Assembly (NCBI RefSeq): GCF_947496985.1
Contig: NZ_CANMEZ010000001.1
Location: 62,001 to 126,000, forward strand
Reading direction: 5' to 3'
DNA: 64,000 nt
Source: an uncultured Kordia sp.
GTDB taxonomy: Bacteria > Bacteroidota > Bacteroidia > Flavobacteriales > Flavobacteriaceae
Each line of letters starts with the position of its first letter. Within the stretch, counting starts at the first letter, position 1. The position numbers and the translations under genes were made by a program. Shown piece after piece: positions 21,691 to 37,829 of this stretch. Under the pieces are notes generated by a model, which had not been told where the DNA came from, searched no databases, and saw only the letters and a list, made by a program, of their open reading frames with translations.

Positions 21691-22704
21691 TCAATTATCA
21701 TATTTATTTACCGCAATTTGTAATTTTTTTCGAATTCGCTTTCGTAACAATCTTGGCTCTAATACTTCTATAGCATCTCCAAAACCAAGAATCAAACGTT
21801 CCAATTCAAAATTAATATGTACTAACAGTTTTATAGTGACACTTCCATTTTTGTCTGTTGAAATGATTTCTTGTGTATGATGAAAAGGTTTTGTTACTAC
21901 ATAGGGCGCGTTACTTTTATCAATTTTTAAAACAATCTCTTGTATGTGTTTTTCATCTAAAACCGTAACACCAATCGTATTTTTGTAATAATCATCTCCA
22001 TTAAAATTTTCATTTCTATATGGAATATCTAAATCATAATCTAGCTTAATAATTCTATCCAAAGCAAAAGTTGTAATCTGTGTTTTATTTCCTGTAACAC
22101 CAACTAAAAACCAACGATTATTAAACTCTTTCAAGATAAACGGATGAAAAATAATTTCAGAAGCATGACGCGCTTTGAACGATTGATACGTAAGACGCAA
22201 TACTATTTTTTTCAAAATAGATTGATACAATACATCTAAATGTTCTAATCCTTTTAGGTTTTCATTTTTGTCTAAATGTATAATAGAAGATTGATGTGTT
22301 TTTTCGGTATACACTTTATCTTCTAAACGCTGAATAATGCCGCCTAATTCAGAAAACAATGAGAAATCTTTAAACTGTTTCAGCATTTCTACAGTTTCCG
22401 ACAATACATTCATATCGTTTTCTGTCAGCGGAATATCTGTTATAGAATATTCTTCATCTTCGTATTTATAATATTTACGATCGTACACCACAATTGGCGC
22501 ATTGTAACCCAATTTATCACTACGCATCATTTGAATATCTAATTGAACCGTTCTACGACTCACATTCACTTCTCGACCTTCATATTCATGTAAAGTATCA
22601 GAACACGCTTCAATCAAATCGTTCAAAGTCCATTGACGATAGTGGTTTTGCAAGCATTTATCAATGGTTTTATAACGGATCAATGCATTTTTATTAATTG
22701 CCAT
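21691..22704 (-). CDS. WYL-domain transcriptional regulator (RNA-repair island)
   Basis: A 337-aa regulator: N-terminal winged-helix region (~1-75, RRTVQLDIQMMRSDKLGY is the recognition-helix area), a central WYL domain (~155-240, with RWFLVGVTGNKTQITTFALDRI) and a C-terminal WCX-like extension. WYL proteins of this layout (for example BrxR/CapW-type) sense nucleic-acid or nucleotide ligands and act as repressors or activators. It is divergent from the HEPN-like gene over a 100-nt gap that holds the first of six identical operators, so autoregulation is likely. It is paralogous to the WYL protein at 61368-62378 (same length, same N-terminal NKxxxIRYxTxDxC pattern). Confidence 0.9.
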   Translation of the reverse strand: MAINKNALIRYKTIDKCLQNHYRQWTLNDLIEACSDTLHEYEGREVNVSRRTVQLDIQMMRSDKLGYNAPIVVYDRKYYKYEDEEYSITDIPLTENDMNVLSETVEMLKQFKDFSLFSELGGIIQRLEDKVYTEKTHQSSIIHLDKNENLKGLEHLDVLYQSILKKIVLRLTYQSFKARHASEIIFHPFILKEFNNRWFLVGVTGNKTQITTFALDRIIKLDYDLDIPYRNENFNGDDYYKNTIGVTVLDEKHIQEIVLKIDKSNAPYVVTKPFHHTQEIISTDKNGSVTIKLLVHINFELERLILGFGDAIEVLEPRLLRKRIRKKLQIAVNKYDN

Positions 22705-22744: not shown

Positions 22745-22780
22745 TACGCAAAATAATTGCGCAAATGAGTTGAATATTCG
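22745..22780 (+). promoter_or_regulatory. WYL-type operator/promoter, site 1
   Basis: Palindrome TACGCAA-AATAA-TTGCGCA (22745-22763). The TTGC is followed after 16 nt by a -7-like TTCG (22777-22780). It serves the HEPN-like gene and, being symmetric, may control the divergent WYL gene too. No TTTG is present at the normal -33 position; the operator occupies it. Confidence 0.8.
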
Positions 22781-22804
22781 TATATTATTTATAAATAAAA
22801 ACTT

Positions 22805-23632
22805 ATGAAGAATATTATTCCAAAAAATATGGCTCAAATTGATATTAACTTTGATGTTGATGATTTAAAAAGTATAGATGTTCCGCATGAAAGCATTGAA
22901 TATGCAAAAAATTATCTAGAGTCAAAAGAATATGCTGATGGCAACTTCATTGGTGTTACTAGTGATCGCAAAGCAATTATGGGATTTGATTATAAACATA
23001 AAAATCAAATGAAATTTGTTCCTGAATTAGACCCTTGCTTAATCTATTTTTCCAGTGCTCAAATGTTTTCCAAGATGATTTATAGCTACAAGAAAGATTT
23101 ATTGTGCAATCTATCATTTATTGAACCTTCAAAAAATATTAATGCTCAAGATTTAGGAAAAACAATGTTAGAATTTCAACACTTTTTTCAATTTGCATCA
23201 AGCTATACAATAATGTTAAATTCTTCTTTAGAAGCATTTATAAATAAGGAAATCCCAGTTACAACAACTTATATAACCAAGGAAAAAGGAGAGACTAAAG
23301 ATATTAAATGGATTTTAAAAGCAAATCTTGAATTTAAGATGTCAAAAATAATCCCTGAATGTACAAACAAAAACTTTCCTTTAGAATATTCAAAAACATA
23401 TGAATCGATAAAAGATTTTATAAAATTCAGGAATCAGTTAATTCATTTATCTCCCAGAACAGATCACAATAGTGTTAGATATAAAGAATTTTACAGGAAA
23501 ATAATTGATTTTAAATATTTAGATTCGATGTATCAAATCAAAAAATATATTAATTATCATCAACCAAACTTAATAGAAGAACGTGATTTTGGAAGTGAAC
23601 TCTATTTTGACATTATCAAAAACAATTTATAA
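22805..23632 (+). CDS. HEPN-like protein of the RNA-repair island
   Basis: A 275-aa, mostly helical, soluble protein with no family that I recognise firmly. Residues ~216-221 read RNQLIH inside a helix (IKDFIKFRNQLIHLSPR), which fits the R-x4-6-H motif of HEPN ribonuclease or RNA-binding domains. A preceding helix-rich part (~105-160) could complete the bundle. It is the first gene downstream of operator site 1. A HEPN RNase or RNA-binding role would suit the island, but catalysis is not proven by the motif alone. Confidence 0.6.
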   Translation: MKNIIPKNMAQIDINFDVDDLKSIDVPHESIEYAKNYLESKEYADGNFIGVTSDRKAIMGFDYKHKNQMKFVPELDPCLIYFSSAQMFSKMIYSYKKDLLCNLSFIEPSKNINAQDLGKTMLEFQHFFQFASSYTIMLNSSLEAFINKEIPVTTTYITKEKGETKDIKWILKANLEFKMSKIIPECTNKNFPLEYSKTYESIKDFIKFRNQLIHLSPRTDHNSVRYKEFYRKIIDFKYLDSMYQIKKYINYHQPNLIEERDFGSELYFDIIKNNL

Positions 23633-23634
23633 AG

Positions 23635-23671
23635 TGCGTAAAAAGATTGCGTACTTAAATCACATTCTTTG
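23635..23671 (+). promoter_or_regulatory. WYL-type operator/promoter, site 2
   Basis: TGCGTAA-AAAGA-TTGCGTA (23635-23653). TTGC is followed after 17 nt by TTTG (23668-23671). It begins only 3 nt after the stop of the previous gene and drives the first ERI1-like exonuclease, with a leader of ~70 nt. Confidence 0.8.
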
Positions 23672-23747
23672 CACAAGTTCTTTACATAGTAATTGTGCGT
23701 CGGCTTTCATCTGTCAACAAAAACTAATTTAAAAAAATCATTCAAAG

Positions 23748-24299
23748 ATGAAAACAACAAACAAAATCCTAGTGGTAGACTTAGAAGCTACCTGCTGGGA
23801 ACAAGATGGCGAATACCAACGAAATCATAGTGAGATTATCGAAATTGGTATTTGCGAATTGGATGTTCCTTCCGGGAAAATTTCCAATCAACAAGGAATT
23901 CTTGTAATTCCTGAACATTCCGAAATCAGTCGATTTTGCACAGAACTCACATCAATTACACCTGAAATGGTTGCGCAAGAAGGCGTTTCTTTTGAAGATG
24001 CAATTGATATACTCTTTGACGAGTATGATTCGTCTGCATATACTTGGGCAAGTTACGGTGCCTATGATCGTAACAAAGTCATGGAACAGTGTAGACAAAA
24101 GAATGTCGATTTTCCTTTTGGAGATCAGCATATAAACGTTAAAGAAGAGTTTAGACGCTGCAATCGAATGCGACGAGCTATTGGAATGGCACGTGCATTA
24201 AAACAACTCAACATTCCTTTAGAAGGAAGACATCACCGAGGAGTTGATGATGCCAACAACACCGCAAAAATCTTACATTGGTGTTTAAATAATCAGTAA
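23748..24299 (+). CDS. ERI1/3'hExo-like DEDDh 3'-5' exonuclease (copy 1)
   Basis: A 183-aa stand-alone DEDDh exonuclease. Motif Exo I is VVDLEATCW (residues ~9-17), typical of the ERI-1/3'hExo RNA exonuclease branch. Exo II lies in YTWASYGAYDRNKV, and Exo III with the catalytic His is HHRGVDDANNTAKI near the C-terminus. The family trims RNA 3' ends. It has its own operator-promoter and a terminator, and a paralogue sits at the end of the RtcB operon. In this setting it may trim broken RNA ends or remove fragments before or after ligation. Confidence 0.88.
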   Translation: MKTTNKILVVDLEATCWEQDGEYQRNHSEIIEIGICELDVPSGKISNQQGILVIPEHSEISRFCTELTSITPEMVAQEGVSFEDAIDILFDEYDSSAYTWASYGAYDRNKVMEQCRQKNVDFPFGDQHINVKEEFRRCNRMRRAIGMARALKQLNIPLEGRHHRGVDDANNTAKILHWCLNNQ

Positions 24300-24311
24300 G
24301 ATACTTTTTTG

Positions 24312-24337
24312 ATTAGCCTAATGGCTAATTTTTTTTG
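24312..24337 (+). terminator. Terminator of exonuclease copy 1
   Basis: ATTAGCC-TAAT-GGCTAAT hairpin followed by T8, 12 nt after the stop codon. Confidence 0.85.
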
Positions 24338-24352
24338 CTTAAAATTTAGAGC

Positions 24353-24388
24353 TACGTAAAAAGATTGCGCAATTCTTCTCTTCTTTTG
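24353..24388 (+). promoter_or_regulatory. WYL-type operator/promoter, site 3
   Basis: TACGTAA-AAAGA-TTGCGCA (24353-24371). TTGC is followed after exactly 16 nt by TTTG (24385-24388). It drives the S24/S26-like gene with a leader of ~80 nt. Confidence 0.8.
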
Positions 24389-24476
24389 CAAGAGTTCATT
24401 GAAATACTTTTGAAATCAGTTTCCAAAAGATATGTGTATCAATAATGATGCATATAACTTTTAAAAAACTAAAACT

Positions 24477-24773
24477 ATGAATTGGAAAATTCAAAAACTA
24501 CTCGATGGAGAAACCATCATTTCAAAAGAACCTGGTAATTCTATGTTGCCACTTTTAAAATCGAAGCAACCTGTAAAGTTGCAGCCTATTTCTTGGGAAG
24601 ATTGCGAAGTTGGAGACATCGTTTTTTGTAAAGTTCGCGGAAATGTATTTACGCATTTAGTGAAAGGCAAAAACGAAAGACGTGGATTGTTAATCGGAAA
24701 CAATCACGGCAGAATTAACGGATGGACAAAAAATGTATATGGTAAAGTAATAGAAATATTACCAATGTCATAG
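24477..24773 (+). CDS. Small S24/S26 peptidase-like protein
   Basis: A 98-aa protein matching the LexA/signal-peptidase fold: GNSMLPLLKSKQPVKL (residues ~20-35) carries the SM nucleophile motif, followed by GDIVFCKVRGNVFTHLVKG with a candidate His/Lys partner and the GNNHGRINGW loop. It has no membrane segment or DNA-binding domain, so it is neither LexA nor a signal peptidase. It is a monocistronic unit with its own WYL-type promoter and terminator. It could be a cytoplasmic protease that cleaves a partner upon induction. Confidence 0.7.
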   Translation: MNWKIQKLLDGETIISKEPGNSMLPLLKSKQPVKLQPISWEDCEVGDIVFCKVRGNVFTHLVKGKNERRGLLIGNNHGRINGWTKNVYGKVIEILPMS

Positions 24774-24822
24774 ACATTATTCACTTTACAAAATCACACA
24801 TATTTATATAACTATACATTTT

Positions 24823-24850
24823 TGACAATATATTCTATTGTCATTTTTTT
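24823..24850 (+). terminator. Terminator after the S24/S26-like gene
   Basis: TGACAATA-TATTC-TATTGTCA hairpin followed by T7, about 50 nt after the stop codon. Confidence 0.85.
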
Positions 24851-24918
24851 ATTCACAAAAAACACTAACAAACAGCATTTTACATTTTCTTTAAATTAAA
24901 AAATCAAATTAATTTTAC

Positions 24919-24954
24919 TACGTAAAATAATTGCGCACATCTGTAAAATATTTG
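24919..24954 (+). promoter_or_regulatory. WYL-type operator/promoter, site 4
   Basis: TACGTAA-AATAA-TTGCGCA (24919-24937). TTGC is followed after exactly 16 nt by TTTG (24951-24954). Transcription would start near 24961 and run through a ~280-nt structured leader into the 595-aa gene. Confidence 0.8.
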
Positions 24955-25023
24955 TCCTGTCGTTAGTAATCAAATACTTCTGACAAACGATCTAAAGTAC
25001 ATTATTGAAACCATATAAAAATA

Positions 25024-25167
25024 AAAACTGACACAGAAAGTTCCTATTATATCCAGAAAAAAATACTTTCCGTTAGTTTTCAAAAAAAAAGACACAAAAA
25101 GTTCCTATTACTGGTTCGACTCCAGTACTCGCAAGAGTATATTGGTTATATCACTTTTCGTCTTTTT
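25024..25167 (+). ncRNA. Tandem Y-RNA-like structured modules in the leader
   Basis: Two adjacent modules share the 5' strand GACACA(G/A)AAAGTTCCTATTA. Module 1 pairs AAAACTGAC (25024-25032) with GTTAGTTTT (25072-25080) and GAAAG with CTTTC. Module 2 pairs AAAAAGAC (25086-25093) and AAAAGT with ACTTTTC-GTCTTTTT (25153-25167). Inside module 2 are a tRNA T-arm mimic (ACTGG-TTCGACT-CCAGT, loop fits TTCRANY) and a GNRA hairpin (ACTC-GCAA-GAGT). Long end-pairing helix plus tRNA-like domain is the plan of bacterial Y RNAs (YrlA). No TROVE/Ro gene is present, so it may be a Y RNA for an unrecognised partner, a cis-acting leader, or an RtcB substrate. Confidence 0.6.
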
Positions 25168-25241
25168 GAAATAGGTAAAAGGTGTTCCTATAAAACATTC
25201 ATCCAAAGAAAGCATACACCTCACTTATTAATTTAATTAAA

Positions 25242-27029
25242 ATGAAAACACTAAAATTATTTAACGCCGTTGTAGCAAAAGAAAAAACGTCAAGTATTTT
25301 CGATAAAATTTCAAGTAAAAAGCCATTCATCACCGATGAAGGTTATATTATTGAAACAAAAGCGCTTTGGGCTAAAAGAAAAATCATCAAATTCTATGCT
25401 GATGAAAAGTTAAATGGTAACGATTTAAACAAAACTTTCTATAAATCGTGGAGCACGATTCAAAACTACGCTCGTGGTCAATTTTTAATCGACCAAATCA
25501 AGCATTATATTTCTACGTATGGTAGTAATTTTCAGGCTGAAATTTACATTCCGGCGGAAGTATTAAACATTCCTGACACAAAATTATCATACAAAGTCAT
25601 CAAAGCATATACAGTTGCTGAAATGCAAGAGAAATGTTTATCGTTATTACAATCTGGTATGGCGTTAAAATCGGAAACTGTTGATGATTTGATTTCAATC
25701 TTGGCAGATGAATTGCAATACACATTTACAGGTAAAGAAAACATCAAAAACAAAGAAGCGATTGTAAAATTAGCAGAGTTTTATGATATCTATCCTGAAA
25801 ATGCGGTGGAATTCTTTAGATATATTATCTACAGAAGTACAGATACCACTTTATTGATTAAAAATGATGAATTGATCGAATTGATTAAAAACAGTTCGTA
25901 CAATCCAACACAAGCATTTAACAAGTTTGGTTTAGAGAAATTAGCTGAAATCTTCAATCGTTTCAAACCTTTATTTTTAGCATATAAAAGTAAAGCTCCA
26001 AAAACGATTAATAAGATTAGTAAGCTTTCAAAAAAGCACCACAAGCCACTGGTTTCAAACCCACTAAACAGCGTAACAAATATTTTATTAACAACAAATG
26101 ATGTACGTTGGTTAGACAATGCAACTCCGTTTGCGTTATTCAAAGCGTTATCGGCTTGTTACAGTCGTATGAATGGTCAAGATGCGTTTTTATACAGAAT
26201 TCGTAATGGTAAATCGTGGGTAAAATCAAATACAGTAACTGATGTAAATGAGCAAAATTACAAGTTCATTCTCAACTATATCAAAACTCGATTTGATTTA
26301 TCTGATAAAAAAATATTCTTGCCAGAAGATATAAAATATGCATTGCCTACTTCCGAAAAAATGTATGTGGGCAACATTCCAACTGGTACACGCTTTTACG
26401 GTAAAAAAATGGCCGTTGGTATATACTGGAAAAATGCTTGGGGTGCAAATGATTTGGATTTATCTGGTTTAAATATTGGTGGTAAAATTGGTTGGAATGC
26501 AACCTACAACCAACAAAATGGTAACTTGATGTATTCGGGAGATATTACCTCAGCGCCTAATGGTGCAGCAGAATATTTGTACGCTAATAAAGGTTTAAAC
26601 ATGCCGACATTGGTAAACAACAATGTATATTCTGGTAGTGCAACCTGCGAATACAAAATCATTATTGGTAAAGGTGATGATATTAATTACGATTATATGA
26701 TGAATCCAAACAAGTTGTTTGCCGAGATAAAATGTACTTCGGTACAATGGCAAACCATTTTGGGTATCATGATTCCAAAAAAAGATAAACAATGCTTTGT
26801 ATTACTAAACTTTGGTGCTGGTCATGCGCGAATTTGTGGTAATTCGGAAATCTCCGACTTGGCTACAAAAGCATTATACCAACAATGGAACAAACCATTG
26901 TCGTTCAATAAAATCGTAAAGATTTTAGGTGCAGAAATTGTAACAGTAAAGGAACAAGCTGACTTTGATTTTTCTTTGGAAAACTTAGAAAAAGATAGTT
27001 TCTTAAAACCTTTCAAACAATCAACATAA
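25242..27029 (+). CDS. Novel 595-aa protein of the RNA-repair island, C-terminal TerD-like domain
   Basis: I cannot assign a family. The N-terminal ~350 residues are almost wholly helical (ring or HEAT-like repeats possible) and contain LYRIRNGKSW at ~310. The C-terminal ~200 residues are beta-rich: VGIYWKNAWGANDLDLSGL, GKIGW, then YSGDITSAPNGAAEYLY. This order resembles the TerD stress fold (DxDLS, then SGD/TGD and a G/E-rich turn). A helical body plus a C-terminal beta domain is loosely like Ro proteins, but the TROVE motifs and the vWA DxSGS site are absent. The codon use (many GGT) differs a little from neighbours. It is preceded by the Y-RNA-like leader and WYL site 4, so it is the likely partner of that RNA. 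Confidence 0.6.
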   Translation: MKTLKLFNAVVAKEKTSSIFDKISSKKPFITDEGYIIETKALWAKRKIIKFYADEKLNGNDLNKTFYKSWSTIQNYARGQFLIDQIKHYISTYGSNFQAEIYIPAEVLNIPDTKLSYKVIKAYTVAEMQEKCLSLLQSGMALKSETVDDLISILADELQYTFTGKENIKNKEAIVKLAEFYDIYPENAVEFFRYIIYRSTDTTLLIKNDELIELIKNSSYNPTQAFNKFGLEKLAEIFNRFKPLFLAYKSKAPKTINKISKLSKKHHKPLVSNPLNSVTNILLTTNDVRWLDNATPFALFKALSACYSRMNGQDAFLYRIRNGKSWVKSNTVTDVNEQNYKFILNYIKTRFDLSDKKIFLPEDIKYALPTSEKMYVGNIPTGTRFYGKKMAVGIYWKNAWGANDLDLSGLNIGGKIGWNATYNQQNGNLMYSGDITSAPNGAAEYLYANKGLNMPTLVNNNVYSGSATCEYKIIIGKGDDINYDYMMNPNKLFAEIKCTSVQWQTILGIMIPKKDKQCFVLLNFGAGHARICGNSEISDLATKALYQQWNKPLSFNKIVKILGAEIVTVKEQADFDFSLENLEKDSFLKPFKQST

Positions 27030-27043
27030 TACCAATTATCACT

Positions 27044-27148
27044 TGGGCGTAACCACGCGAAAAAGCGTGGTCGCGTCTTCGTTACTCGCTCTTTCAACTT
27101 TTTTGAAAGGAGCTCAAACATACCACTCACCCGCTTACGCGGAGTAAC
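27044..27148. repeat. Structured intergenic element of three hairpins
   Basis: Three successive hairpins: CCACGC-GAAAAA-GCGTGG (27053-27070), GCTCTTTCAA/TTGAAAGGAGC with a bulge, and CCGC-TTAC-GCGG. GC content is higher than the flanks. It resembles dispersed REP-like elements of flavobacteria and separates two convergent genes, so it may also act as a terminator for both. Confidence 0.5.
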
Positions 27149-27150
27149 AA

Positions 27151-27765
27151 CTACTTTCTAGAAAAACTAGTTCCTTCAAACTGAACATACGAATTATCCG
27201 TTCTTGACTTTAATACATCAATTACAGCATTCAATTCATATACATTTTTGTACCCATAACCATATAAATTTATATAAGTCGGTATATTCAATGCCAACAT
27301 CAAAGGTTGATTATTTATTGGTAAAGCAATTTTTGATGCAAAATGAATCGGATCATTTTGAATATTATTATTGCAGTAAATCAAAATTTTAGTCTCAGGA
27401 TCCGGAATTAAACGCATTAAATTTTGCTGTGTAAATTTTGTAAAAGGTAAATTAACAGCTCCTTTTATGTGACTTTTTTTATACAGATCTTCAGCTCTTG
27501 CATCAAGAATAATCACATCTTCTTCTTGACTCATTTTCACAAAAGTTGCTAAATCAACCATGCGTTCTTCTCTATGTTTTTCAACTTTGGCAACTAATCC
27601 TTTATAATCATCAAAGCTAACCAAAGGCTTGCTCTCAGAAGAATTATTAAACACTATTGTGAAATTCTCTATTCGTTCCTTTTCATCTTTTGATGTATCA
27701 GATTCTTGTGCTATCATATTACAAATGAAGACCATTGCAATAAAAATAAAAATTTTAGCTCTCAT
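27151..27765 (-). CDS. Exported rhodanese-domain protein
   Basis: A 204-aa protein with a signal peptide (residues ~1-19, ending IAQ) and one rhodanese domain (~70-170). DARAEDLYKKSHIKGAVNLP is the substrate-side loop, and the active-site Cys is in LIYCNNN. It is the only gene in the RNA-repair island on the minus strand besides the regulator, and it has no WYL-type operator. It is probably unrelated to the system. Confidence 0.8.
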   Translation of the reverse strand: MRAKIFIFIAMVFICNMIAQESDTSKDEKERIENFTIVFNNSSESKPLVSFDDYKGLVAKVEKHREERMVDLATFVKMSQEEDVIILDARAEDLYKKSHIKGAVNLPFTKFTQQNLMRLIPDPETKILIYCNNNIQNDPIHFASKIALPINNQPLMLALNIPTYINLYGYGYKNVYELNAVIDVLKSRTDNSYVQFEGTSFSRK

Positions 27766-28019
27766 AATTTCTAAATTTTATCTAATCTACATATTCAAAA
27801 TACATTATGTAACTTATAATGAGTAAACTGACCATATGAGTTAGTGAATAGCATTGATTCATTGTAAAAGATAATAATGCTTTTTATCTTTTCCATAATA
27901 TAGTAATCGTTACTCGTTGAAAAATTTTGAAGCCTTTAAAAAAATCTTAGGAAAATTATGTGGCTTTATTTATAAGAAATTTAAACCAATGATTGATTGA
28001 TTAAAAAACATATTTTTAC

Positions 28020-28055
28020 TACGCAAAATTATTGCGTAGTATCATTACATATTTG
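28020..28055 (+). promoter_or_regulatory. WYL-type operator/promoter, site 5 (rtcB operon)
   Basis: TACGCAA-AATTA-TTGCGTA (28020-28038). TTGC is followed after exactly 16 nt by TTTG (28052-28055). It lies upstream of rtcB and the co-directional genes to 33724. The ~250 nt upstream to 27766 hold nothing else that I recognise. Confidence 0.82.
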
Positions 28056-28100
28056 TATCGGAATCATAAATACGTCATAATACATGACACAGTGAAAATG

Positions 28101-30013
<1,913 letters not shown>

Positions 30014-30023
30014 AATCGAAATT

Positions 30024-30767
30024 ATGAATACACAAAAAATTATCGTTATATCTCCAAATTTCTCTGAAGATTCTATGATTATCAGCCAAGCAACGATTAA
30101 TAGTGAATTCACAGCTATGCGATTTGGAAGTTGGAATGTTCCTTTGGAATATCAAAATGATGTTGTAGCAGTTTATGGAGAAGATTTGTTCACGACAATT
30201 GTGGCTGAGCAATGCAACTTAAAACTCCTAAAACCTGCAGACGATTGGCTTGCAAGTATTCCTCTAAAATATACGCTGCGAAACATAATCTATGATCGAT
30301 TTGGGAACATATACGATGTGAAAAATAAATTTATCAAACCTGTTGATTTCAAGTTTTTCCCTGCTGGTGTATACACTTCCGTAGATAAAATTCAGGGATT
30401 TGAAACGATAGATAATAACATTGAAGTCTTCGTTTCCGATGTCGTGAATTGGTCGATTGAAGTTCGTTGTTTTGTTATTGATAGAAACATACAAACATGG
30501 TCAACATATATCTACAATAAAGAAATTCAGCTGAAAGATTCCATGTTACAAAATGAAGAAACTCAAATGCTAATCTTTCTCAATGAGTTTCTAACCGACA
30601 AAACTATCGATTTACCAAAAGCTGTCGTCATTGATGTCGGTTATATTCCAGATAAAGGTTGGGCATTGATTGAAGCAAATCCTGTTTGGAGTTCAGGTGT
30701 GTATGCTTGTAATCCCAAAAAAGTAATCGATACAATTGTGAAAAGTTGTGAAAAAATGACGTCATAA
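30024..30767 (+). CDS. ATP-grasp domain protein (R2K-like)
   Basis: A 247-aa ATP-grasp-fold protein resembling the R2K/DUF4343 clade. Residues ~99-115 carry NKFIKPVDFKFFPAGVY with the ATP-binding Lys-Pro, VNWSIEVRCFVID holds the conserved Arg, and ALIEANPVWSSGVYA (~215-229) is the metal-binding E-x-N end. Such enzymes form amide or peptide-like bonds and are known from phage and RNA-repair gene neighbourhoods. The gene follows the membrane protein by 10 nt. It may modify a peptide or protein of the system, possibly RNA-linked. Confidence 0.75.
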   Translation: MNTQKIIVISPNFSEDSMIISQATINSEFTAMRFGSWNVPLEYQNDVVAVYGEDLFTTIVAEQCNLKLLKPADDWLASIPLKYTLRNIIYDRFGNIYDVKNKFIKPVDFKFFPAGVYTSVDKIQGFETIDNNIEVFVSDVVNWSIEVRCFVIDRNIQTWSTYIYNKEIQLKDSMLQNEETQMLIFLNEFLTDKTIDLPKAVVIDVGYIPDKGWALIEANPVWSSGVYACNPKKVIDTIVKSCEKMTS

Positions 30768-30778
30768 AATACAAAATT

Positions 30779-31513
30779 ATGAATTCTATTTTTCAAGATT
30801 TAATAAACGAAGCATATTCTATTTTCCCTGCTCAAAATCCTTTATCAACTCTTGATGCTTGTCTAGCATGTTGCATGACTGAGATACAAAGCATTCGATT
30901 AATGACAGAAACAAGAGAAAACTTAACCTTTAAAGATATTTATGAATATAACAGTACAGCCAAAAGTGGATACACTATAGAAACACTTCATGAGTTAAAA
31001 CATTTTTTACCTGTAATGATTTCATTATTTCTACACGAAGAAGAAATTCATCATTCAACTGAACTATTTTTTCAACGTGTAAAAATGGTTCCAGAAGGAA
31101 GTTGGAATGAAGTAGAAATTGATTTCTTTGAAAGATTTGCAACTAACTATTGGATGTATTGTCTAACAAATAAAGAGCTACCTTTTAATGAAGATATTGG
31201 AGGAATATATTTATGTCTGTATAATTTCCCAATAGATAAAAATAGCTTACTACAAAAATGGGAAGATAATTTTTCTCCTAAAAACTTATCTCATTTAATA
31301 TACATATTAAACAATGGCGGTTATAAATTTAAAATGAATGCCTTCTTTAATGATGATAACAGCACTGAATTAATATCTTGGTTAAAAAATGACACCTTAA
31401 AAGACAATGTGAAACGAAGTTTAGAGCGTATTTTTTGGGAAGAAAATCATGAGTTTACTGATAAAGAGGTTTTACATTTAGAAAGCTTATATATTTTAAT
31501 TGATACTGTTTAA
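30779..31513 (+). CDS. Uncharacterised helical protein of the rtcB operon
   Basis: A 244-aa soluble, helical protein. Notable features are a Cys cluster CLACCM near residue 28, and a helix with HELKHFLPV and HEEEIHHSTELFFQRV (~80-105) whose spaced His/Glu could bind metal, as in zinc-dependent or diiron folds. No exact family recognised. It is 11 nt after the ATP-grasp gene and 18 nt before the next frame, firmly inside the operon. Confidence 0.6.
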   Translation: MNSIFQDLINEAYSIFPAQNPLSTLDACLACCMTEIQSIRLMTETRENLTFKDIYEYNSTAKSGYTIETLHELKHFLPVMISLFLHEEEIHHSTELFFQRVKMVPEGSWNEVEIDFFERFATNYWMYCLTNKELPFNEDIGGIYLCLYNFPIDKNSLLQKWEDNFSPKNLSHLIYILNNGGYKFKMNAFFNDDNSTELISWLKNDTLKDNVKRSLERIFWEENHEFTDKEVLHLESLYILIDTV

Positions 31514-31531
31514 AAACAAAATCATACAACA

Positions 31532-32412
31532 ATGAATCAAAAAGATCTAAAGAATAAAGTATATCAATTATTATTTGATAAAGTTTCTAAAGTAAATTTT
31601 AAAAAAGATATTCAGGTACTAAACGATGTATACAAACCTGATTCAGATTCATTGTTGCATGACTTAATACATGTAAACTATAATACGCAAGATTATAAAC
31701 AACGATTAATTAAAGTTATATCAAAATATACAGCTGAAGAAGAATTAATCAGTCTTACAATTTATCAAAACTGTATGAATATTATTGAAACAACTGATCA
31801 AAAAGTTGCCTTCAATCATATGGATAATTTAGGAAAACATATATTGATAGTGAATCAAAATATCATATTATATATGATTTTTATCGACTAAATGAAGAGT
31901 TAGCTGACATAAAAAAGAATTTAGTTAATACGAAAAAAGAAGAAGTCTATTTTAATAGTAAAAAATGTGCAAGAGCTGTTGTTGAAAAATATGATTTTTA
32001 TAAAAAAAATCAAAAATGGAGTACGTTTTTACAAATCTCCTTAACCATTATCAAACACAAAGAATCAATCAAAGACATACAGAAACAACAAGTTATTTCA
32101 CATGTAATTAAAGAGCTTTCAAATTTTGAGTCAAAACCAAAATTAAGGCGATTATTAGCAAAAAAAGGATTTAGTAAAGCTGAAATTAAAGAAGTGATGA
32201 AAACTTCTGAATACGCCTCAAAAAAAGTTATGAAAGAAAGACTCTTTCCTATGCTAGCACTAGGCACAATATTTACAGTAACGAGCATTATATTACTCAC
32301 AAATAAAAATAACACAGGCAACTACGGATTGTATACGTTTTTTGTAGGAGTTGGACTTTTAGTTTCAACTGGTATGGCGTATTGGAAGATCAAAAAGAAA
32401 ACTAAATTATAA
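31532..32412 (+). pseudogene. Membrane protein gene interrupted by a frameshift
   Basis: The first frame (from 31532) is coherent and helical to about residue 102, then gives a short hydrophobic tail and stops at 31891. From ~31828 the -1 frame becomes coherent (RKTYIDSESKYHIIYDFYRLNEE, abbreviated) and runs to 32412, where the stop overlaps the next start. This C-terminal part has two transmembrane helices. The break maps to AGGAAAACAT at ~31838. A single lost base, a sequencing error, or a -1 ribosomal shift all fit; there is no canonical slippery heptamer. Joined, the product would be ~292 aa: a helical cytoplasmic domain with two membrane helices. Confidence 0.65.
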
Positions 32413-33125
32413 TGACGACAAGAAGCAGAGGAAAAGAAGGAAGTGATGATCGACTGTTTGGCGATGAAAAAATGCAATCAAAAATGCAAGAAGCTATCAA
32501 AGATCAATCGTATTTATTAAGTAGAGGATTCTCTGAAAAATCATCATTGCAATTAGTTGGAAATCGTTACAAACTCAACAATCGTCAACAACGTGCTATA
32601 CAAGGGATGAGTGAAGCTTCTGATAAACTGATTAAACGTGAATTGAAGTGTTTACAACCAAATCAACTAACAGATCAGGAAGTAATGCTAGATGGTTTTA
32701 ATGTATTGATCATGTTAGAAAGTGCTCTATCAGGAGCTTTTCTATTCAAAGGGTTAGATGGTTGTTATCGCGATTTATCAAGCGTACACGGAACGTATAA
32801 AAAAGTAAAGCAAACAGAAAAAGCGATTCAGCTCATTGCTGATTTTTTACAAGAAAACAAGGTTAAAAAAGCAACGTGGATCTTTGACAAACCAGTTTCC
32901 AATAGTGGCCGTTTAAAAACAATTTTACGAGAGTTTGCAGATGAAAACCAACTCAATTGGGAAATCATTTTAGATAACAATCCTGATAAGTTAATTGCTG
33001 AAAGTGGAAACATTGCTATCAGTTCTGATGCATGGATTTTAGACAATGCAACATCTTGGTGCAATATGGTACGACATATTGTAGATAAATATATTCCACA
33101 AAAAAATGTGGTAGAATCTGAATAA
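32412..33125 (+). CDS. DUF434/DUF5616 protein, PIN-like
   Basis: A 237-aa soluble protein in two parts: an N-terminal DUF434 region (residues ~25-85, YLLSRGFSEKSSLQLVGNRY, abbreviated, and LNNRQQRAI) and a DUF5616 region (~90-225) starting VMLDGFNVLIMLES, with the acidic DGFN and later DNATSW. DUF5616 has a PIN-nuclease look with RNA as the likely substrate. The start overlaps the previous stop (TAATG). It fits a role in processing damaged RNA in the rtcB operon. Confidence 0.75.
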   Translation: MTTRSRGKEGSDDRLFGDEKMQSKMQEAIKDQSYLLSRGFSEKSSLQLVGNRYKLNNRQQRAIQGMSEASDKLIKRELKCLQPNQLTDQEVMLDGFNVLIMLESALSGAFLFKGLDGCYRDLSSVHGTYKKVKQTEKAIQLIADFLQENKVKKATWIFDKPVSNSGRLKTILREFADENQLNWEIILDNNPDKLIAESGNIAISSDAWILDNATSWCNMVRHIVDKYIPQKNVVESE

Positions 33126-33134
33126 AAAAATGAG

Positions 33135-33155
33135 ATCCTGAATCAAGTTCAGGAT
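33135..33155. repeat. Short intergenic palindrome (REP-like)
   Basis: ATCCTGAA-TCAAG-TTCAGGAT lies in the 44-nt gap before the second exonuclease. The same palindrome is widespread between genes in many genomes of this group. It lacks a T-run and so is not a strong terminator; the operon may read through. Confidence 0.6.
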
Positions 33156-33169
33156 GACGAAAAAATAAA

Positions 33170-33724
33170 ATGAATCATACAAAAAATATAATCATCGTTG
33201 ACTTAGAAGCAACTTGCTGGAATGGTAAAATTCCTGATGGACAAGTCAATGAAATCATAGAAATAGGAATCTGTGTTTTAAATACAGAAACTGGTAACAT
33301 TACACAAAATGAAGGAATTCTTATCAAACCTGAACGTTCGGAAGTCAGTGAGTTTTGCACAGAACTGACGACAATTACCCAAGAACTATTAGATACGGAA
33401 GGAATTTCATTTGCAGAAGCGCTCACCAAGCTTCGAGTAGAATACGATCCAAAACAATATACATGGGCTAGTTACGGTCAATACGATCTCAACATGTTAA
33501 AGCGTCAATGTAAATTAAGAAATATGGAATATCCTATGGGCGCAAATCATATCAATGTAAAAACAACTTTTACAGAAGTAAAAGGACTGCGTAAAAAAGT
33601 AGGCATGAATGGAGCGCTACAAATATTGAATATTCCATTAGAAGGAACACATCACAGAGGAATTGATGATGCAAAAAACATTGGCAAAATTTTAGATTGG
33701 TGTTTAAAAAATCAACAAGAGTAA
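33170..33724 (+). CDS. ERI1/3'hExo-like DEDDh exonuclease (copy 2)
   Basis: A 184-aa paralogue of the exonuclease at 23748. It has VDLEATCWNG (Exo I), YTWASYGQYDLNMLKRQC (Exo II) and THHRGIDDAKNIGKILDWCL (Exo III, with the catalytic His). All acidic residues are intact. It lies at the end of the rtcB run. Two diverged copies under the same operator suggest different RNA substrates or partners. Confidence 0.88.
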   Translation: MNHTKNIIIVDLEATCWNGKIPDGQVNEIIEIGICVLNTETGNITQNEGILIKPERSEVSEFCTELTTITQELLDTEGISFAEALTKLRVEYDPKQYTWASYGQYDLNMLKRQCKLRNMEYPMGANHINVKTTFTEVKGLRKKVGMNGALQILNIPLEGTHHRGIDDAKNIGKILDWCLKNQQE

Positions 33725-33739
33725 AACCTTAAAACTAAC

Positions 33740-33775
33740 TACGCAAAAATATTGCGCAATCATGATTCATCTTTG
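33740..33775 (+). promoter_or_regulatory. WYL-type operator/promoter, site 6
   Basis: TACGCAA-AAATA-TTGCGCA (33740-33758). TTGC is followed after exactly 16 nt by TTTG (33772-33775). It excludes the upstream TTG start of the next frame, since the operator covers it, and fixes the ATG at 33794 as the start. The downstream run reaches the first tRNA-like genes. Confidence 0.82.
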
Positions 33776-33793: not shown

Positions 33794-34441
33794 ATGGAAT
33801 TTGCAGAAAATCAACTAGAATTACATTTGAAAAGTATAAATGAGAGACAAGAAAGGTTTTTACAAATCTCTGAGGTTGTCCTCAATTTATTAAAAACTAA
33901 GGAGAATCAAGATTTAAAATTGTGTGTTATGACAGTTTTGAAAAGAACAATTTCCACAATAGAAGGAATTAAAGCACTGATTAAAATAAAGAATTTCACA
34001 AGTGCAGCCCCATTAGCCAGAATATATCTTGATAGTTTAATAAGACTTCACGCTTTTAAACTTTATGATAACCCAAATGAAATCGCTCTTGAGGTTCTTT
34101 CTGGAAAAAAAATACGAAACTTAAAAGGTCGAAATAATAAAAAGATGACAGATCATTATCTAGTTAATTCATTATCTAAAGATTATTCATGGATAACAAA
34201 CGTTTATGATAAAACTTCTGGATATGTGCACTTCAGTTTTCAACATCATAATAATATGATAGTCAAACAAGAAGAAACAGGAAATGAAATAAGAACATTC
34301 TACTACATGTCTAAAAATGATCCTCATGTAAAAACAGGAAGCTGGTTAGAATTAACTACTCTAATTTTGGAAATTTCTAAAGCTCTATCAAAACTTATAT
34401 ATTCTTTACTAGAAAAAGACCTAAAAAGTCTTGAAGAATGA
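33794..34441 (+). CDS. Helical protein, DUF5677-like
   Basis: A 215-aa helical protein. The middle (SAAPLARIYLDSLIRLHAF, ~75-95) resembles the DUF5677/AbiV-type helical fold. A conserved-looking pair TSGYVHFSFQHH is at ~155. The ATG at 33794 is used because the longer frame would begin in the operator. First gene of the site 6 unit. No activity can be assigned; HEPN-like relatives occur in abortive infection. Confidence 0.6.
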   Translation: MEFAENQLELHLKSINERQERFLQISEVVLNLLKTKENQDLKLCVMTVLKRTISTIEGIKALIKIKNFTSAAPLARIYLDSLIRLHAFKLYDNPNEIALEVLSGKKIRNLKGRNNKKMTDHYLVNSLSKDYSWITNVYDKTSGYVHFSFQHHNNMIVKQEETGNEIRTFYYMSKNDPHVKTGSWLELTTLILEISKALSKLIYSLLEKDLKSLEE

Positions 34442-34540: not shown

Positions 34541-35251
34541 ATGAACGCTTTACTAGACATAGCATATTCCTGCAAAAGCTTTATTTCCAATGAATGGAAA
34601 GAACAATATGGTTCGTTTTTACTGAATGAACATTTATCGTTGCTTTCGCGAAATACTTATGCGTTGTATCAAAATGATTTTACCAAAATTCATGGAAAAC
34701 CTAATTTTGAAGAAGAAATCATTCCTAATATTCAAGAAGCATTTTCCACCTTTAAAACACAATTCCATACCATTAAAAAATATAATTTTGAATGGAATGT
34801 TATCACGCGAAAGGCGTTTGCTACTGCATTGGAGCAAACGCCTTTTGCACATGTACTAATTTTGTCTGGGCAACGATTAACCTCAGCAAGTGTCCAAGAT
34901 GAATCTGCAATACCTTCACTTCGTCAAGAATTGATTAAACATAGTTTTGAAGCATATAATGATCAAATTTCAAAAGCAGTTCGTGCTTGGGAAAAACATG
35001 CGCAACGTTCTTCAGACAATTTTTGGGGAACCATCAAAGGAAGCAATCAAGAAAAAGAAGAAAATGTACAAAAACTCATAAAATACATTCTAAAACATAA
35101 AAGTTGGTGGAATGTATTTACACATTACAAGCATGAATTAGTATATGAAGCCCGAATTCCAAGTGGTCATGGAATTCGTTGGAAAAAAGACACAAATGAA
35201 CTCATTGGATTTTTAGAACCTTTTGAAAATTACGATTATGACAGAAAATGA
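34541..35251 (+). CDS. Uncharacterised protein upstream of the SDR gene
   Basis: A 236-aa soluble, largely helical protein with no family that I recognise. Conserved-looking spots are the RLTSASVQDESAIPSLRQEL stretch (~112-131) and the C-terminal SGHGIRWKKDTNELIGFLEPF (~209-229, noted in part). Its end overlaps the SDR gene by 14 nt, so the two proteins are probably made together. Confidence 0.65.
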   Translation: MNALLDIAYSCKSFISNEWKEQYGSFLLNEHLSLLSRNTYALYQNDFTKIHGKPNFEEEIIPNIQEAFSTFKTQFHTIKKYNFEWNVITRKAFATALEQTPFAHVLILSGQRLTSASVQDESAIPSLRQELIKHSFEAYNDQISKAVRAWEKHAQRSSDNFWGTIKGSNQEKEENVQKLIKYILKHKSWWNVFTHYKHELVYEARIPSGHGIRWKKDTNELIGFLEPFENYDYDRK

Positions 35252-36605
35252 TCAACTATATAATTTTTCGCAACAAGAATGGGAAACTTGCCTAAAGGTT
35301 TTGCATGAGTTGAAAGAAAATCCATTAGAAAACCCTGACAATAAACAATTTGGGACACTGATTACGAAGATTTCTAAAAAAGCGAAAAAGGCAAATCGAA
35401 AAGACGCATTTTCCTCTAAAAAACAAGAAGATTTAGAAACGATTTTGAATAGTCAAATCTCTAAAAACGCTTTACAAAACAAAACAGTATATAATGATGA
35501 AAAACAAAATCCGCAATCATATACAAAACTAAATGTTCCTAAAAATTGTTATTGCTGCAATACTTCCTTTTCATTTGCACATTCATTCTACAATAGACTA
35601 TGTCCAACATGCGCTGAACTCAATTATGCAAATCGTTTCAAAAGTATCGATTTATCAGGGCGCAATATTATCTTAACTGGTGGACGCGTAAAAATTGGCT
35701 ATGCCACAGCACTTAAAATGTTACGATCTAAAGCGCATCTGACAATTACAACACGTTTTCCAGCAATTGCATTAGATCAATTTCGTCAAGAAAAAGATTA
35801 TACAACTTGGAAAGACAACTTAGTTGTGTATGGATTGGATTTACGAAATTTAAAATCGGTTGAAAACTTTATTAATTACTACAAAAATAGACATGAAACG
35901 CTTGATATTTTGATCAACAACGCAGCGCAAACCATAAAATATACCGATCAATATTACACGCCATTAATTGCAAAAGAGCAACAATTGACATTAGAATTTT
36001 CTGGTCATCAGAATTTAATTGCAAATAAAACACCTGTAGCAAATGTAAAGCTCTTAGAAAATCATGTTGAGAAAAGTTATTTAGAATTGAATCGTTTTGG
36101 ACAACCTATTGACAATCGATCAAAAAATAGCTGGAATGCAACTCTAGAAGAAATCTCTATGCAAGAATTGATCGAAGTAAACTTAATTAATCAAATTTCT
36201 CCATATTTTCTAATTAAAGAATTATTACCATTATTGAAAAACTCAACATCTGAAAGAAAACACATTATCAACGTGACTTCTTCCGAAGGACAATTTAGTT
36301 ACAACAATAAAACCATGTTCCATCCGCATACAAATATGACCAAAGCAGCATTGAATATGATGACGCGAACTTCAGCGATGACTTTTGAAAAAAATCATAT
36401 TTATATGAATGCAGTAGATGTTGGTTGGATATCTACAGGCGCACTTGAAACCTTACGCAAACAACAATTTGAGAAAGGGTACATTCCTCCACTCGATCCA
36501 GTAGATGGCGCATCGAGAATCGTTCATCCTATCTATGAAAATGAAAAAAACAATACTATCTTTACTGGTAAGTTATTAAAAAACTACGGTATTGTAGATT
36601 GGTAA
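35238..36605 (+). CDS. Zn-ribbon/short-chain dehydrogenase fusion, catalytic Tyr missing
   Basis: A 455-aa protein. The N-terminal ~95 residues are charged and helical, followed by a four-Cys zinc ribbon (NCYCCNTSF...RLCPTCAEL). An SDR Rossmann domain covers ~140-450: NIILTGGRVKIGY (TGxxxGxG site), LDILINNAAQT (NNA) and HIINVTSSEGQF. The YxxxK catalytic position reads HTNMTKAALN, with Thr where Tyr should be, so the redox chemistry may be lost or changed and the fold may bind a nucleotide or ADP-ribose derivative. The ATG at 35238 is preferred to the TTG at 35223. Overlaps the previous gene. Confidence 0.8.
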   Translation: MTENDQLYNFSQQEWETCLKVLHELKENPLENPDNKQFGTLITKISKKAKKANRKDAFSSKKQEDLETILNSQISKNALQNKTVYNDEKQNPQSYTKLNVPKNCYCCNTSFSFAHSFYNRLCPTCAELNYANRFKSIDLSGRNIILTGGRVKIGYATALKMLRSKAHLTITTRFPAIALDQFRQEKDYTTWKDNLVVYGLDLRNLKSVENFINYYKNRHETLDILINNAAQTIKYTDQYYTPLIAKEQQLTLEFSGHQNLIANKTPVANVKLLENHVEKSYLELNRFGQPIDNRSKNSWNATLEEISMQELIEVNLINQISPYFLIKELLPLLKNSTSERKHIINVTSSEGQFSYNNKTMFHPHTNMTKAALNMMTRTSAMTFEKNHIYMNAVDVGWISTGALETLRKQQFEKGYIPPLDPVDGASRIVHPIYENEKNNTIFTGKLLKNYGIVDW

Positions 36606-36636
36606 AATACCAATAATACGAAATTTTGATACGCAA

Positions 36637-36707
36637 AGATTGATAGTTTAATTGGAAGAACACTTGGCTCATATCTAGAAGTGCGAGTTCAAATCTCGCT
36701 CAGTCTT
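36637..36707 (+). tRNA. Degenerate tRNA-like gene, CAT anticodon
   Basis: Good acceptor (AGATTGA/TCAGTCT), D-arm and T-arm (GCGAG-TTCAAAT-CTCGC), but a weak anticodon stem (CTTGG/CTAGA) around CTCATAT, giving CAT. The acceptor helix extends by three pairs beyond the canonical 7 (CAA/TTG), leaving no single-stranded 3' end in the DNA-encoded form. It starts 31 nt after the SDR stop, so it may be co-transcribed from site 6. It could be a decaying tRNA-Met or a tRNA mimic. Confidence 0.55.
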
Positions 36708-36723
36708 TGTAAAAAAAACGGCA

Positions 36724-36795
36724 ACAGTAGTAGCTCAATTGGAAGAGTGCCTGCCTGTCAAGCAGGAAGTGCGGGTTCGATTCTCGCCTACTGTT
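36724..36795 (+). tRNA. tRNA-Asp (GTC), divergent
   Basis: Cloverleaf with acceptor ACAGTAG/CTACTGT, D-arm GCTC...GAGT, anticodon arm CCTGC-CTGTCAA-GCAGG and T-arm GCGGG-TTCGATT-CTCGC. The anticodon GTC is for Asp. First pair is A-T, not the usual G-C, and two further pairs (CA/TG) extend the acceptor helix. No CCA is encoded. In tandem with the previous tRNA-like gene. Confidence 0.8.
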
Positions 36796-36823
36796 GTTTA
36801 TTTTTTTAAATTAAAGAATCATT

Positions 36824-37144
36824 ATGAGCTTAGAAATTACATATTCAATAGAACGAAACACTTTTAGCGAAGACGTTTTTGATGGAAATGAAGATATTTT
36901 TGTAAATTTTACTAACGGAGATAGATATGTTGCTACTTTCTTTACTTACAAAAACATTGAATCTTTAAGACAAAAAAATCAAAAAACGGGAGAAGAATTA
37001 TCTGGTAAATATTTTTGGGCATCAGATATGATATTAATCAATGATTTACGTACAGAAACTATCAAAAATGTAATTGATGACCTTATAAAAGATTATTCAT
37101 TTAAAAGCGTTTTTTCTGAGATTAAAAAGGAAGACTTTGATTAG
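36824..37144 (+). CDS. Small hypothetical protein between tRNA genes
   Basis: A 106-aa acidic protein with an alternating beta/alpha pattern (DIFVNFTNGDRYVATFFTY, then FWASDMILINDL). No signal peptide or membrane helix. It starts 28 nt after tRNA-Asp on the same strand. No family recognised. Confidence 0.6.
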   Translation: MSLEITYSIERNTFSEDVFDGNEDIFVNFTNGDRYVATFFTYKNIESLRQKNQKTGEELSGKYFWASDMILINDLRTETIKNVIDDLIKDYSFKSVFSEIKKEDFD

Positions 37145-37187
37145 AGAGCTCAAAATCAATTAGATTCAATATAAATAAACTATAAAA

Positions 37188-37220
37188 TTTGGAAGAAACC
37201 CTATAAAAATCACATATTTG
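37188..37220 (+). promoter_or_regulatory. Predicted promoter of small RNA unit 1
   Basis: TTTG (37188-37191), 21-nt spacer and CATATTTG (37213-37220). It lacks the WYL-type palindrome. The spacing is slightly long, so confidence is moderate. Confidence 0.45.
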
Positions 37221-37225
37221 CCACA

Positions 37226-37412
37226 CTAATGACAAGATATTATTTACATATAGCCTCTATTTGCCTGAAAAGTCAGGACAGAAATCGCGGAATGGTTGAA
37301 CCATTTTTGCGAAATAAGACGCTTTATGTACATTTTTATGAGTGAAATTTAATATGAAATAACACAAAAAATTATACAAACAGTAAGCGTCTAAGAAATT
37401 AGGCGCTTTTTT
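37226..37412 (+). ncRNA. Predicted structured small RNA 1
   Basis: No credible ORF lies between the promoter and a strong terminator. The RNA can form a closing helix TACATA/TATGTA (37245-37250 with 37325-37330, plus GC/GC). This encloses two hairpins: CCTGA-AAAG-TCAGG (37264-37277) and CGC...AATGGT-TGA-ACCATT...GCG (37286-37311). This three-way form is compatible with a tRNA-like or Y-like RNA. No known family recognised. Confidence 0.5.
37385..37412 (+). terminator. Terminator of small RNA 1
   Basis: Perfect 10-bp stem AAGCGTCTAA/TTAGGCGCTT (one G-T pair) with a GAAA tetraloop, followed by T6. Confidence 0.9.
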
Positions 37413-37485
37413 TATGAAAAAAATTTAAAAAATGTTTAGAGCATAATCAAATAGAAAAATAAAAGGTTGAAACAAAAGGCAATTG

Positions 37486-37580
37486 AGGGACAGACAGTTG
37501 GTAAAAAGTTCAATATCCGTTATCATACGGACAGGAATTCCTATGTCCAAAAATAGACACAACTAACTGATTATCAGTTA
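37486..37580 (+). other. Further structured segment, possible RNA
   Basis: Contains hairpins TCCGT-TATCAT-ACGGA, GGACA...TGTCC around GGAATTCC, and a perfect TAACTGA-TTA-TCAGTTA (37564-37580) that could end a transcript. I see no clear promoter, and no ORF. Confidence 0.3.
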
Positions 37581-37597
37581 AATAATTTCAAAAAATA

Positions 37598-37629
37598 TTT
37601 GTGTAATCAAAAAAACGTTTTCATATTTG
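37598..37629 (+). promoter_or_regulatory. Predicted promoter of small unit 2
   Basis: TTTG (37598-37601), 20-nt spacer and CATATTTG (37622-37629). Transcription would start near 37636. Confidence 0.6.
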
Positions 37630-37806: not shown

Positions 37807-37829
37807 CAGTAACTATATATAAACTTTAT

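Follow-up and report, generated by a model that had tools for sequence, protein, structure and literature searches.

The window analysed here, a stretch of 64,000 nucleotides from an uncultured Kordia sp. (contig NZ_CANMEZ010000001.1), holds an RNA-repair island that includes the RNA ligase RtcB, and sequence comparisons support the view that this island is a single six-promoter regulon controlled by one WYL-type regulator. It is likely that the WYL protein binds a 19-bp palindrome, TRCGYAA-N5-TTGCGYA, controls every unit of the island, activates its targets and represses its own gene; binding, activation, autorepression and a ligand are what we infer from sequence and modelled structure. The regulator gene and the six candidate operators are as follows.

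21691-22704, minus strand: WYL regulator, 337 aa, winged helix-turn-helix (wHTH) plus WYL and WCX domains, predicted to bind the operator (Pfam WYL E = 1.2e-11, WCX E = 6.8e-14)
22745-22763, no strand assigned: operator 1, flanked by the divergent WYL gene and gene 22805, with a -7-like TTCG at 22777-22780 on the plus side
23635-23653, plus strand: operator 2, -7 TTTG at 23668-23671
24353-24371, plus strand: operator 3, -7 TTTG at 24385-24388
24919-24937, plus strand: operator 4, -7 TTTG at 24951-24954
28020-28038, plus strand: operator 5, -7 TTTG at 28052-28055
33740-33758, plus strand: operator 6, -7 TTTG at 33772-33775

The six palindromes had been proposed in a first-pass annotation of this DNA, and all are exact, beginning at 22745, 23635, 24353, 24919, 28020 and 33740, with the 5-nt spacers AATAA, AAAGA, AAAGA, AATAA, AATTA and AAATA that it had listed. 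They are the only exact matches in the window, dinucleotide shuffles of which yielded none (0/100). The genome-wide scan suggested there (5,478,425 bases) returned the same six sites, all within the island, against none for a reversed control pattern. The outcome that the annotation had named as refuting, a motif scattered at random or lying mostly beyond the island, is not what the scan shows. With up to two mismatches allowed, the motif occurs 103 times in forward and 90 times in reverse orientation, compared with 116 and 122 for the control. Because these counts match the control level, near-matches outside the island are background, and the regulon, if real, is confined to the island. The sites do lie upstream of and co-directional with island genes, as the annotation held, but operator 1 faces the WYL gene as well, lying 40 bp upstream of its ATG; it stands between that gene on the minus strand and gene 22805 on the plus strand, in agreement with the divergent arrangement described earlier. 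A weak site at 36617, before a tRNA array, was rejected as chance, having three mismatches on the plus and two on the minus strand and abutting a tRNA 5′ end, which leaves no space for a promoter.

Association of the motif with the regulator extends across the family. The unbiased test of co-occurrence is a comparison of 249 genomes of Flavobacteriaceae, in which motif and control counts were tallied by hand from tables and a WYL ortholog, defined by at least 50% identity, is present in 33. The exact motif occurs in 31 of these 33 genomes versus 20 of the 216 without the ortholog (Fisher p = 1e-23), and the reversed control in 6/33 and 24/216, so that the motif in genomes lacking the ortholog is at the level of the control. 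It occurs at just one place in 19 of those 20 genomes, and 14 of the 20 have the match on one strand only. Neighbourhoods were read for 32 WYL loci (L081-L112) and for eight other motif places (L113-L120). An operator with at most one mismatch is found in 31 of the 32 WYL neighbourhoods, the exception being L109, and the smallest version of the locus consists of the WYL gene, the operator and RtcB (L091-L096, L110, L111). In one genome (G176) the WYL gene is on contig C13 and RtcB on contig C9, with an operator 104 nt upstream of the latter (L117). The other motif places (L113-L116, L118-L120) are exact operator-like sites far from a WYL locus or in genomes without the ortholog, and no island-family gene lies directly behind them.

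A second, named set consists of the best 80 of at least 569 WYL relatives in reference genomes; as these loci were picked by WYL similarity, co-occurrence within them is conditional. These 80 span Flavobacteriaceae (Kordia, Aquimarina, Flavobacterium, Maribacter, Zobellia, Cellulophaga), Saprospiraceae, Crocinitomicaceae and Flammeovirga, the closest named homolog among them being that of Kordia algicida (89% identical). With the pattern TRCGYAA-N5-TTRCGYA and at most one mismatch, the WYL-upstream side of the 80 loci holds 160 operators in 702 kb and the other side a single one in 700 kb; the reversed control, scored on the WYL-upstream side only, gave none. Two loci, L172 and L190, were scored as operator-less through an overlong WYL start and both hold an exact operator. 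RtcB is recognised in 68/80 loci and lies at most 320 nt behind an operator in 59/80, with several loci ending at contig ends.

RtcB is also the commonest first feature behind operators in both sets. Among the 74 operators of the family set it comes first in 24 cases, followed by tRNA genes (9), SPFH (5), RlaP (4) and the 595-aa family (3), with 29 others or without assignment. For the 161 operators of the named set the counts are 65 for RtcB, 17 for a 746-aa family, 8 for a T4-type RNA ligase, 7 for RlaP, 5 for SPFH, 4 for the 595-aa family and 3 for tRNAs, and 52 others or without assignment. Overall, the target units comprise RtcB, RlaP, PrfH, T4-type ligase, SPFH, exonucleases, tRNAs and a structured leader RNA; the names RlaP, SPFH, RF-1-type (PrfH-like), T4 RNA ligase and PNKP were assigned by Pfam searches of one or two members per family.

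The promoters behind these operators share a distinctive geometry, described here for 229 distinct operators (74 from the family set and 161 from the named set, six shared and counted once) that were oriented by spacer asymmetry and not by gene, with 1 of 162 named-set operators dropped as ambiguous. In the window, TTTG follows the palindrome after 13 nt (14 at operator 2), exactly at five sites and as TTCG at operator 1, which is equivalent to the distance of 16 nt from TTGC (17 once) noted in the annotation. Across the set TTTG stands at offset 13 or 14 in 212/229 operators, whereas the 39 other offsets average 1.4 each, and a TAnnTTT box with at most one mismatch, the -7 feature of Bacteroidota sigma-A, is present in 224/229. 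In Flavobacterium promoters a TTG -33 element precedes the -7 box by 17-23 nt. Only 7 of 224 target promoters have a TTG in that interval, and the six window sites, for which the absence of a -33 TTTG had been claimed, are not among the 2/70 operators with such a TTG; the tRNA-Phe promoter of the window, TTTG-N18-TATATTTG, does fit the rule. On the WYL-facing side 55/68 promoters have a TTG at 17-23 nt, and the TAnnTTT box lies 6 nt further out, at offset 15-16 in 54/68 compared with 9-10 at targets. Distance from operator to WYL start is 37-43 bp in 42/69 loci and 26-28 bp in 16/69. In a flavobacterium the TAnnTTTG box occupies -12 to -5 (PMC9723704; the papers cited here are drawn on in excerpt), which places the palindrome at about -40 to -22.

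The regulator itself has the architecture expected of a DNA-binding WYL protein. Its WYL and WCX domains score 44.8 and 52.4 bits in Pfam, above the cut-offs of 21.8 and 23.9. The N-terminus has no Pfam HTH match; the AlphaFold2 (AF2) model (mean pLDDT 79) predicts there the winged-HTH order helix-helix-strand-strand (H27-42, H50-61, E71-74, E78-81). In Foldseek the model matches DriD bound to DNA best (8tp8, E = 8.8e-16, full length over 341 columns), then PafBC (2.5e-12) and, far behind, CapW (1.6e-7) and BrxR (5.9e-7); in a sequence search against solved structures DriD chains alone match at E 0.01. A second WYL paralog is encoded at 61368-62378 of the window (37% identity) with no operator nearby, and no operator was found upstream of WYL paralogs in the window or in L094, the two places checked. 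WYL regulators with a C-terminal extension occur in L100, L101 and L103-L111, one clade measuring 521-609 aa; the one tested, from L100, ends in a PhyH domain (2-oxoglutarate dioxygenase-like, Pfam E = 2.4e-9), and the extension is shorter and degenerate-looking in L110 and L111.

From these promoter sequences we infer activation of the targets together with autorepression of the WYL gene, a choice between activator and repressor that the first-pass annotation had not made. The WYL protein would bind the palindrome as a dimer, and at targets the palindrome would cover the region from about -40 to -22, where sigma-A would need a -33 element. Since this element is missing, the WYL protein would be needed at target promoters, and the activated protein would recruit or place RNA polymerase there, in the manner of DriD and PafBC. 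The promoter of the WYL gene itself, on the opposite strand of operator 1, would use a canonically spaced TTG inside the palindrome, so that binding should repress the WYL gene; the canonically spaced TTG of 55/68 WYL-side promoters fits autorepression. The likely trigger would be a nucleic acid that arises from RNA damage and binds to the WYL and WCX domains. Activation is favoured mainly because the layout agrees with that of DriD from Caulobacter crescentus, whose palindrome lies over -35 at a constant distance from -10 in promoters with poor -35 elements (PMC12340889, a preprint). The corresponding features, an operator overlapping -35/-33 at a fixed distance from -10/-7 and poor -35 elements, are those of DriD- and PafBC-type activators and are present here, and the closest structures, DriD and then PafBC, are both activators and rank ahead of CapW and BrxR.

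Several observations weigh against this model. Use of the WYL-side TTG by sigma is confounded with operator conservation because the TTG is part of the palindrome, which leaves the 6-nt shift of the -7 box as the independent part, and spacer orientation contradicts gene direction in 5 of 57 operators where the latter is unambiguous. Superposition of the whole WYL model on DriD is poor (TM 0.48, rmsd 21.7), indicating that domain placement differs between them; identity is about 20%, and R217 (in LDR) is common to both but R197 is not. Two of the 33 WYL-clade genomes have no exact motif: G019, which has sites with one mismatch, and G033 (L109), whose WYL gene is 52% identical and which has neither RtcB nor an operator in the 18 kb examined. 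Finally, the activator model is built on sequence and structure prediction, and a copied promoter-operator cassette could give a repressor fixed spacing as well.

The last point bears on the strongest alternative, to which we assign a minor share of the probability: the WYL protein may act at the same operators as a classical repressor released by a damage ligand. CapW and BrxR repress CBASS and BREX, and in those systems the operator occludes an otherwise canonical defence-gene promoter. The operator here covers the -33 region, which is a repressor position, CapW and BrxR are structural matches of the WYL protein as well (E of about 1e-7 to 1e-6), and a WYL protein negatively regulates a CRISPR system (PMC4012209). 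However, the promoter occluded would not be canonical, as 217/224 targets lack a canonically spaced TTG, and the spacing to the -7 box is near-invariant; a repressor needs neither, and DriD and PafBC are the better structural matches. It is much less probable that another protein binds the palindrome and that the WYL gene is a regulated neighbour. Although a conserved gene, HD204, separates WYL from the operator in some loci, motif and WYL ortholog go together from genome to genome (a comparison made for WYL), the protein has DNA-binding architecture, and the operator is at near-constant distance from the WYL start in most adjacent loci. That the six sites, near-identical within 11 kb and not far from a serine recombinase gene (38482-40185), are mobile or tandem repeat copies with no regulatory role is contradicted by phasing and by conservation of the same arrangement across divergent genera and families, the site flanks differing outside the palindrome, the A-rich upstream bases and the phased -7 box, and we regard it as very improbable.

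Returning to the activator model, a bolder extension can be offered tentatively, and we think it somewhat less likely to hold than to fail. The system could be an RNA-damage response of Bacteroidota in which the WYL protein directly senses the ends of broken RNA, for example pieces of cleaved tRNA, and activates all target promoters, thereby releasing together ligases, end-healing enzymes, a ribosome-rescue factor, replacement tRNAs and a structured RNA that mimics tRNA. Such a response would be SOS-like for RNA.

In the island, Pfam recognises the WYL-WCX regulator, two RNase_T exonucleases, RtcB ligase, an R2K ATP-grasp protein and a DUF434-DUF5616 protein. Unit limits were drawn from gene order and direction. 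Operator 1 precedes the gene for a 275-aa protein with the WYL gene on its opposite side, operator 2 an exonuclease, operator 3 a 98-aa protein, operator 4 a leader RNA and a 595-aa protein, operator 5 the genes from RtcB through the second exonuclease, and operator 6 three genes and perhaps a tRNA array that begins 30 nt after them.

22805-23632, plus strand: 275-aa target gene, no family, single homolog in the L105 island
23748-24299, plus strand: DEDDh 3′-5′ exonuclease target, RNase_T, KapD-like (Pfam RNase_T E = 2.3e-15)
24477-24773, plus strand: 98-aa target protein, homologs in L081, L084, L085 and L107
25025-25241, plus strand: conserved leader RNA, downstream of operator 4 and ahead of the 595-aa gene, three GUUCCUAU hairpin modules by eye
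25242-27029, plus strand: 595-aa target protein, C-terminal part TerD-like by eye
28146-29534, plus strand: RtcB-family RNA ligase target (Pfam RtcB E = 9.2e-38; open reading frame listed from GTG 28113)
29531-30013, plus strand: 160-aa protein with hydrophobic N-terminus, RtcB unit, homolog in L082
30024-30767, plus strand: R2K-clade ATP-grasp protein, RtcB unit (Pfam R2K_2 E = 1e-25)
30779-31513, plus strand: 244-aa conserved protein, RtcB unit, homologs in L085, L086, L102 and L106
32412-33125, plus strand: DUF434-DUF5616 protein, RtcB unit (Pfam DUF5616 E = 4e-54, DUF434 E = 5.4e-14)
33170-33724, plus strand: second RNase_T exonuclease, RtcB unit (Pfam RNase_T E = 2e-17)
33794-34441, plus strand: 215-aa target protein, sub-threshold DUF5677 match (open reading frame listed from TTG 33752)
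34541-36605, plus strand: two further genes, 34541-35251 with no family and 35223-36605 a short-chain dehydrogenase (Pfam adh_short E = 1.3e-19)
36636-38595, plus strand: tRNA array (Met, Asp, Ser, Lys, Ser, one extra, Asn, Cys, Tyr; 8 by ARAGORN, 9 by Rfam)

The 275-aa protein has an RNxxxH motif that we take to resemble that of HEPN RNases. The KapD likeness of the first exonuclease reaches E = 2.3e-23 in NCBIfam, yet its 82.8 bits are below the cut-off of 169. The 98-aa protein has no match in Pfam or NCBIfam family searches and is presumably similar to small S24/S26-type peptidases in view of its GNSM motif. The 595-aa protein has no Pfam match, and its predicted structure has a mean pLDDT of 55. 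RtcB probably starts at ATG 28146, just before which the 5′ leader contains a hairpin-forming sequence at 28099-28127 (CTCCGCTGA...TCAGCGGAG), and from promoter geometry the gene after operator 6 should begin at ATG 33794 and not at TTG 33752. Between 31532 and 32411 a 119-aa open reading frame is followed by about 500 nt that, as far as the DUF434 gene, seem to code in a different frame; a sequencing error or a disrupted gene may lie behind this. The gene pair 34541-35251 and 35223-36605 is probably read from operator 6; it recurs in L081, where it ends 5 nt before a tRNA gene. A search of 10 proteins with PADLOC recognised no defence system; apart from a few weak matches, the models matched were the generic ones for WYL and DEDDh.

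The leader RNA has homologs in a total of seven leaders (25025-25241 of the window, L086, L107, L123, L124, L127 and L159), and the case for its structure is made from their alignment and not from the module pattern scan; that scan located 32 places, some of which stand alone and are probably due to chance, and its control of permuted words is an unfair null. RNAalifold predicts modules 2 and 3 and inner hairpins with 32 pairs, 10 of which are altered on both sides in at least one sequence, with a covariation term of just -0.46 for n = 7. The middle GUUCCUAU module encloses a hairpin resembling a tRNA T-arm, and the leaders of L086 and L107 also contain, by eye, a sequence that resembles a tRNA and has additional bases in its anticodon region. 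BoxA-like antitermination leaders were considered and rejected, being found behind 12/224 operators compared with 6.8% of random windows, which is no enrichment. The first tRNA of the array begins 30 nt past the dehydrogenase gene, and the array perhaps belongs to the unit of operator 6. At least three tRNA genes follow in 16/80 named loci, and a tRNA gene lies on the same strand within 400 nt of 9/224 operators. Arrays of up to 18 tRNA genes occur within the RNA-repair islands of the regulon (window 36636-38595, L084-L088, L112, L124, L134, L148); that of the window overlaps the serine recombinase gene on the opposite strand.

T-arm-like sequences also precede the 746-aa family, which occurs in L129, L132, L140, L145, L183, L188, L189, L191-L195 and L197-L200 and has a weak, sub-threshold Prok-RING match. 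An operator lies at most 1.5 kb upstream in 16/21 loci, and the leaders of those 16 contain one to three GGTTCGA.TCC sequences each. Its profile has no match among solved structures, and the 595-aa and 746-aa family profiles match each other weakly (E = 0.003, yet with a probability of 10).

For bacterial RNA repair of the RtcB type, the best-known control is that by RtcR and sigma-54. RtcR (PF06956) is absent from all 249 family genomes searched, with a positive E. coli control, so that WYL control is a different solution, as the first-pass annotation had proposed. Sigma-54 control of the island RtcB was rejected: the window has 29 pattern matches against 21.3 expected, and none between 27551 and the RtcB start. 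The Kordia genome has no match to RtcA cyclase (PF01137; E. coli control positive), and it encodes a second RtcB on the same contig (685841-686920) without an exact motif.

A dedicated switch other than RtcR thus appears to run a larger repair set that includes sealing, end healing, ribosome rescue, trimming and, in some species, tRNAs. The recurrence of protein and site together in many Bacteroidota looks like a coordinated and directly testable response to broken RNA. An operator this short and sharp makes the regulon readable from genomes, and it can be used to find candidates for RNA repair behind it, such as the 595-aa and 746-aa families and the leader RNA. The system also allows one to ask what a WYL domain senses when RNA is damaged.

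Among known systems, that of RtcR and sigma-54 at rtcBA likewise has a dedicated regulator for RtcB-type repair, and damaged tRNAs are reported to govern it (PMC7790460). RtcR, a CARF-domain protein, depends on sigma-54 (PMC4012209), whereas the 249 family genomes have no RtcR, the Kordia genome has no RtcA, and no sigma-54-like match lies between 27551 and the start of the island RtcB. DriD shares the WYL-WCX and winged-HTH architecture, a 20-bp pseudo-palindromic site at -35 at a fixed distance from -10 and weak -35 elements at its targets (PMC12340889), and it is the closest solved structure to the Kordia protein. It differs in answering DNA damage through single-stranded DNA (ssDNA), with didA, bapE, recJ and dnaG as named targets (PMC12340889), in its identity of only about 20%, and in that the Kordia targets are RNA-repair genes in a host whose sigma uses -33/-7 boxes. 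Mycobacterial PafBC is a WYL activator that makes the usual -35 contact dispensable by sigma adaptation, inserting between promoter DNA and sigma domain 4; unlike the proposed dimer it is a heterodimer, of which only the PafB HTH touches the -26 motif, and its regulon concerns DNA damage (PMC11804915). BrxR and CapW are WYL regulators encoded beside conflict systems (PMC9122601) and are weaker structural matches to the Kordia protein than DriD and PafBC. Clusters resembling the island in gene content have been described, namely PrfH-RtcB with TPR and nucleotidyltransferase genes (PMC6514570) and RlaP with RNA ligases in jumbo phages (PMC7824862), but in the portions drawn on here these accounts give gene content with no shared operator or WYL regulator. 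No WYL-controlled RtcB regulon is reported in the titles and abstract openings of the literature searched, although an earlier mention in a survey is possible. WYL activators and RNA-repair genes are each known; what is new, as far as could be seen, is that one operator with this promoter logic unites them.

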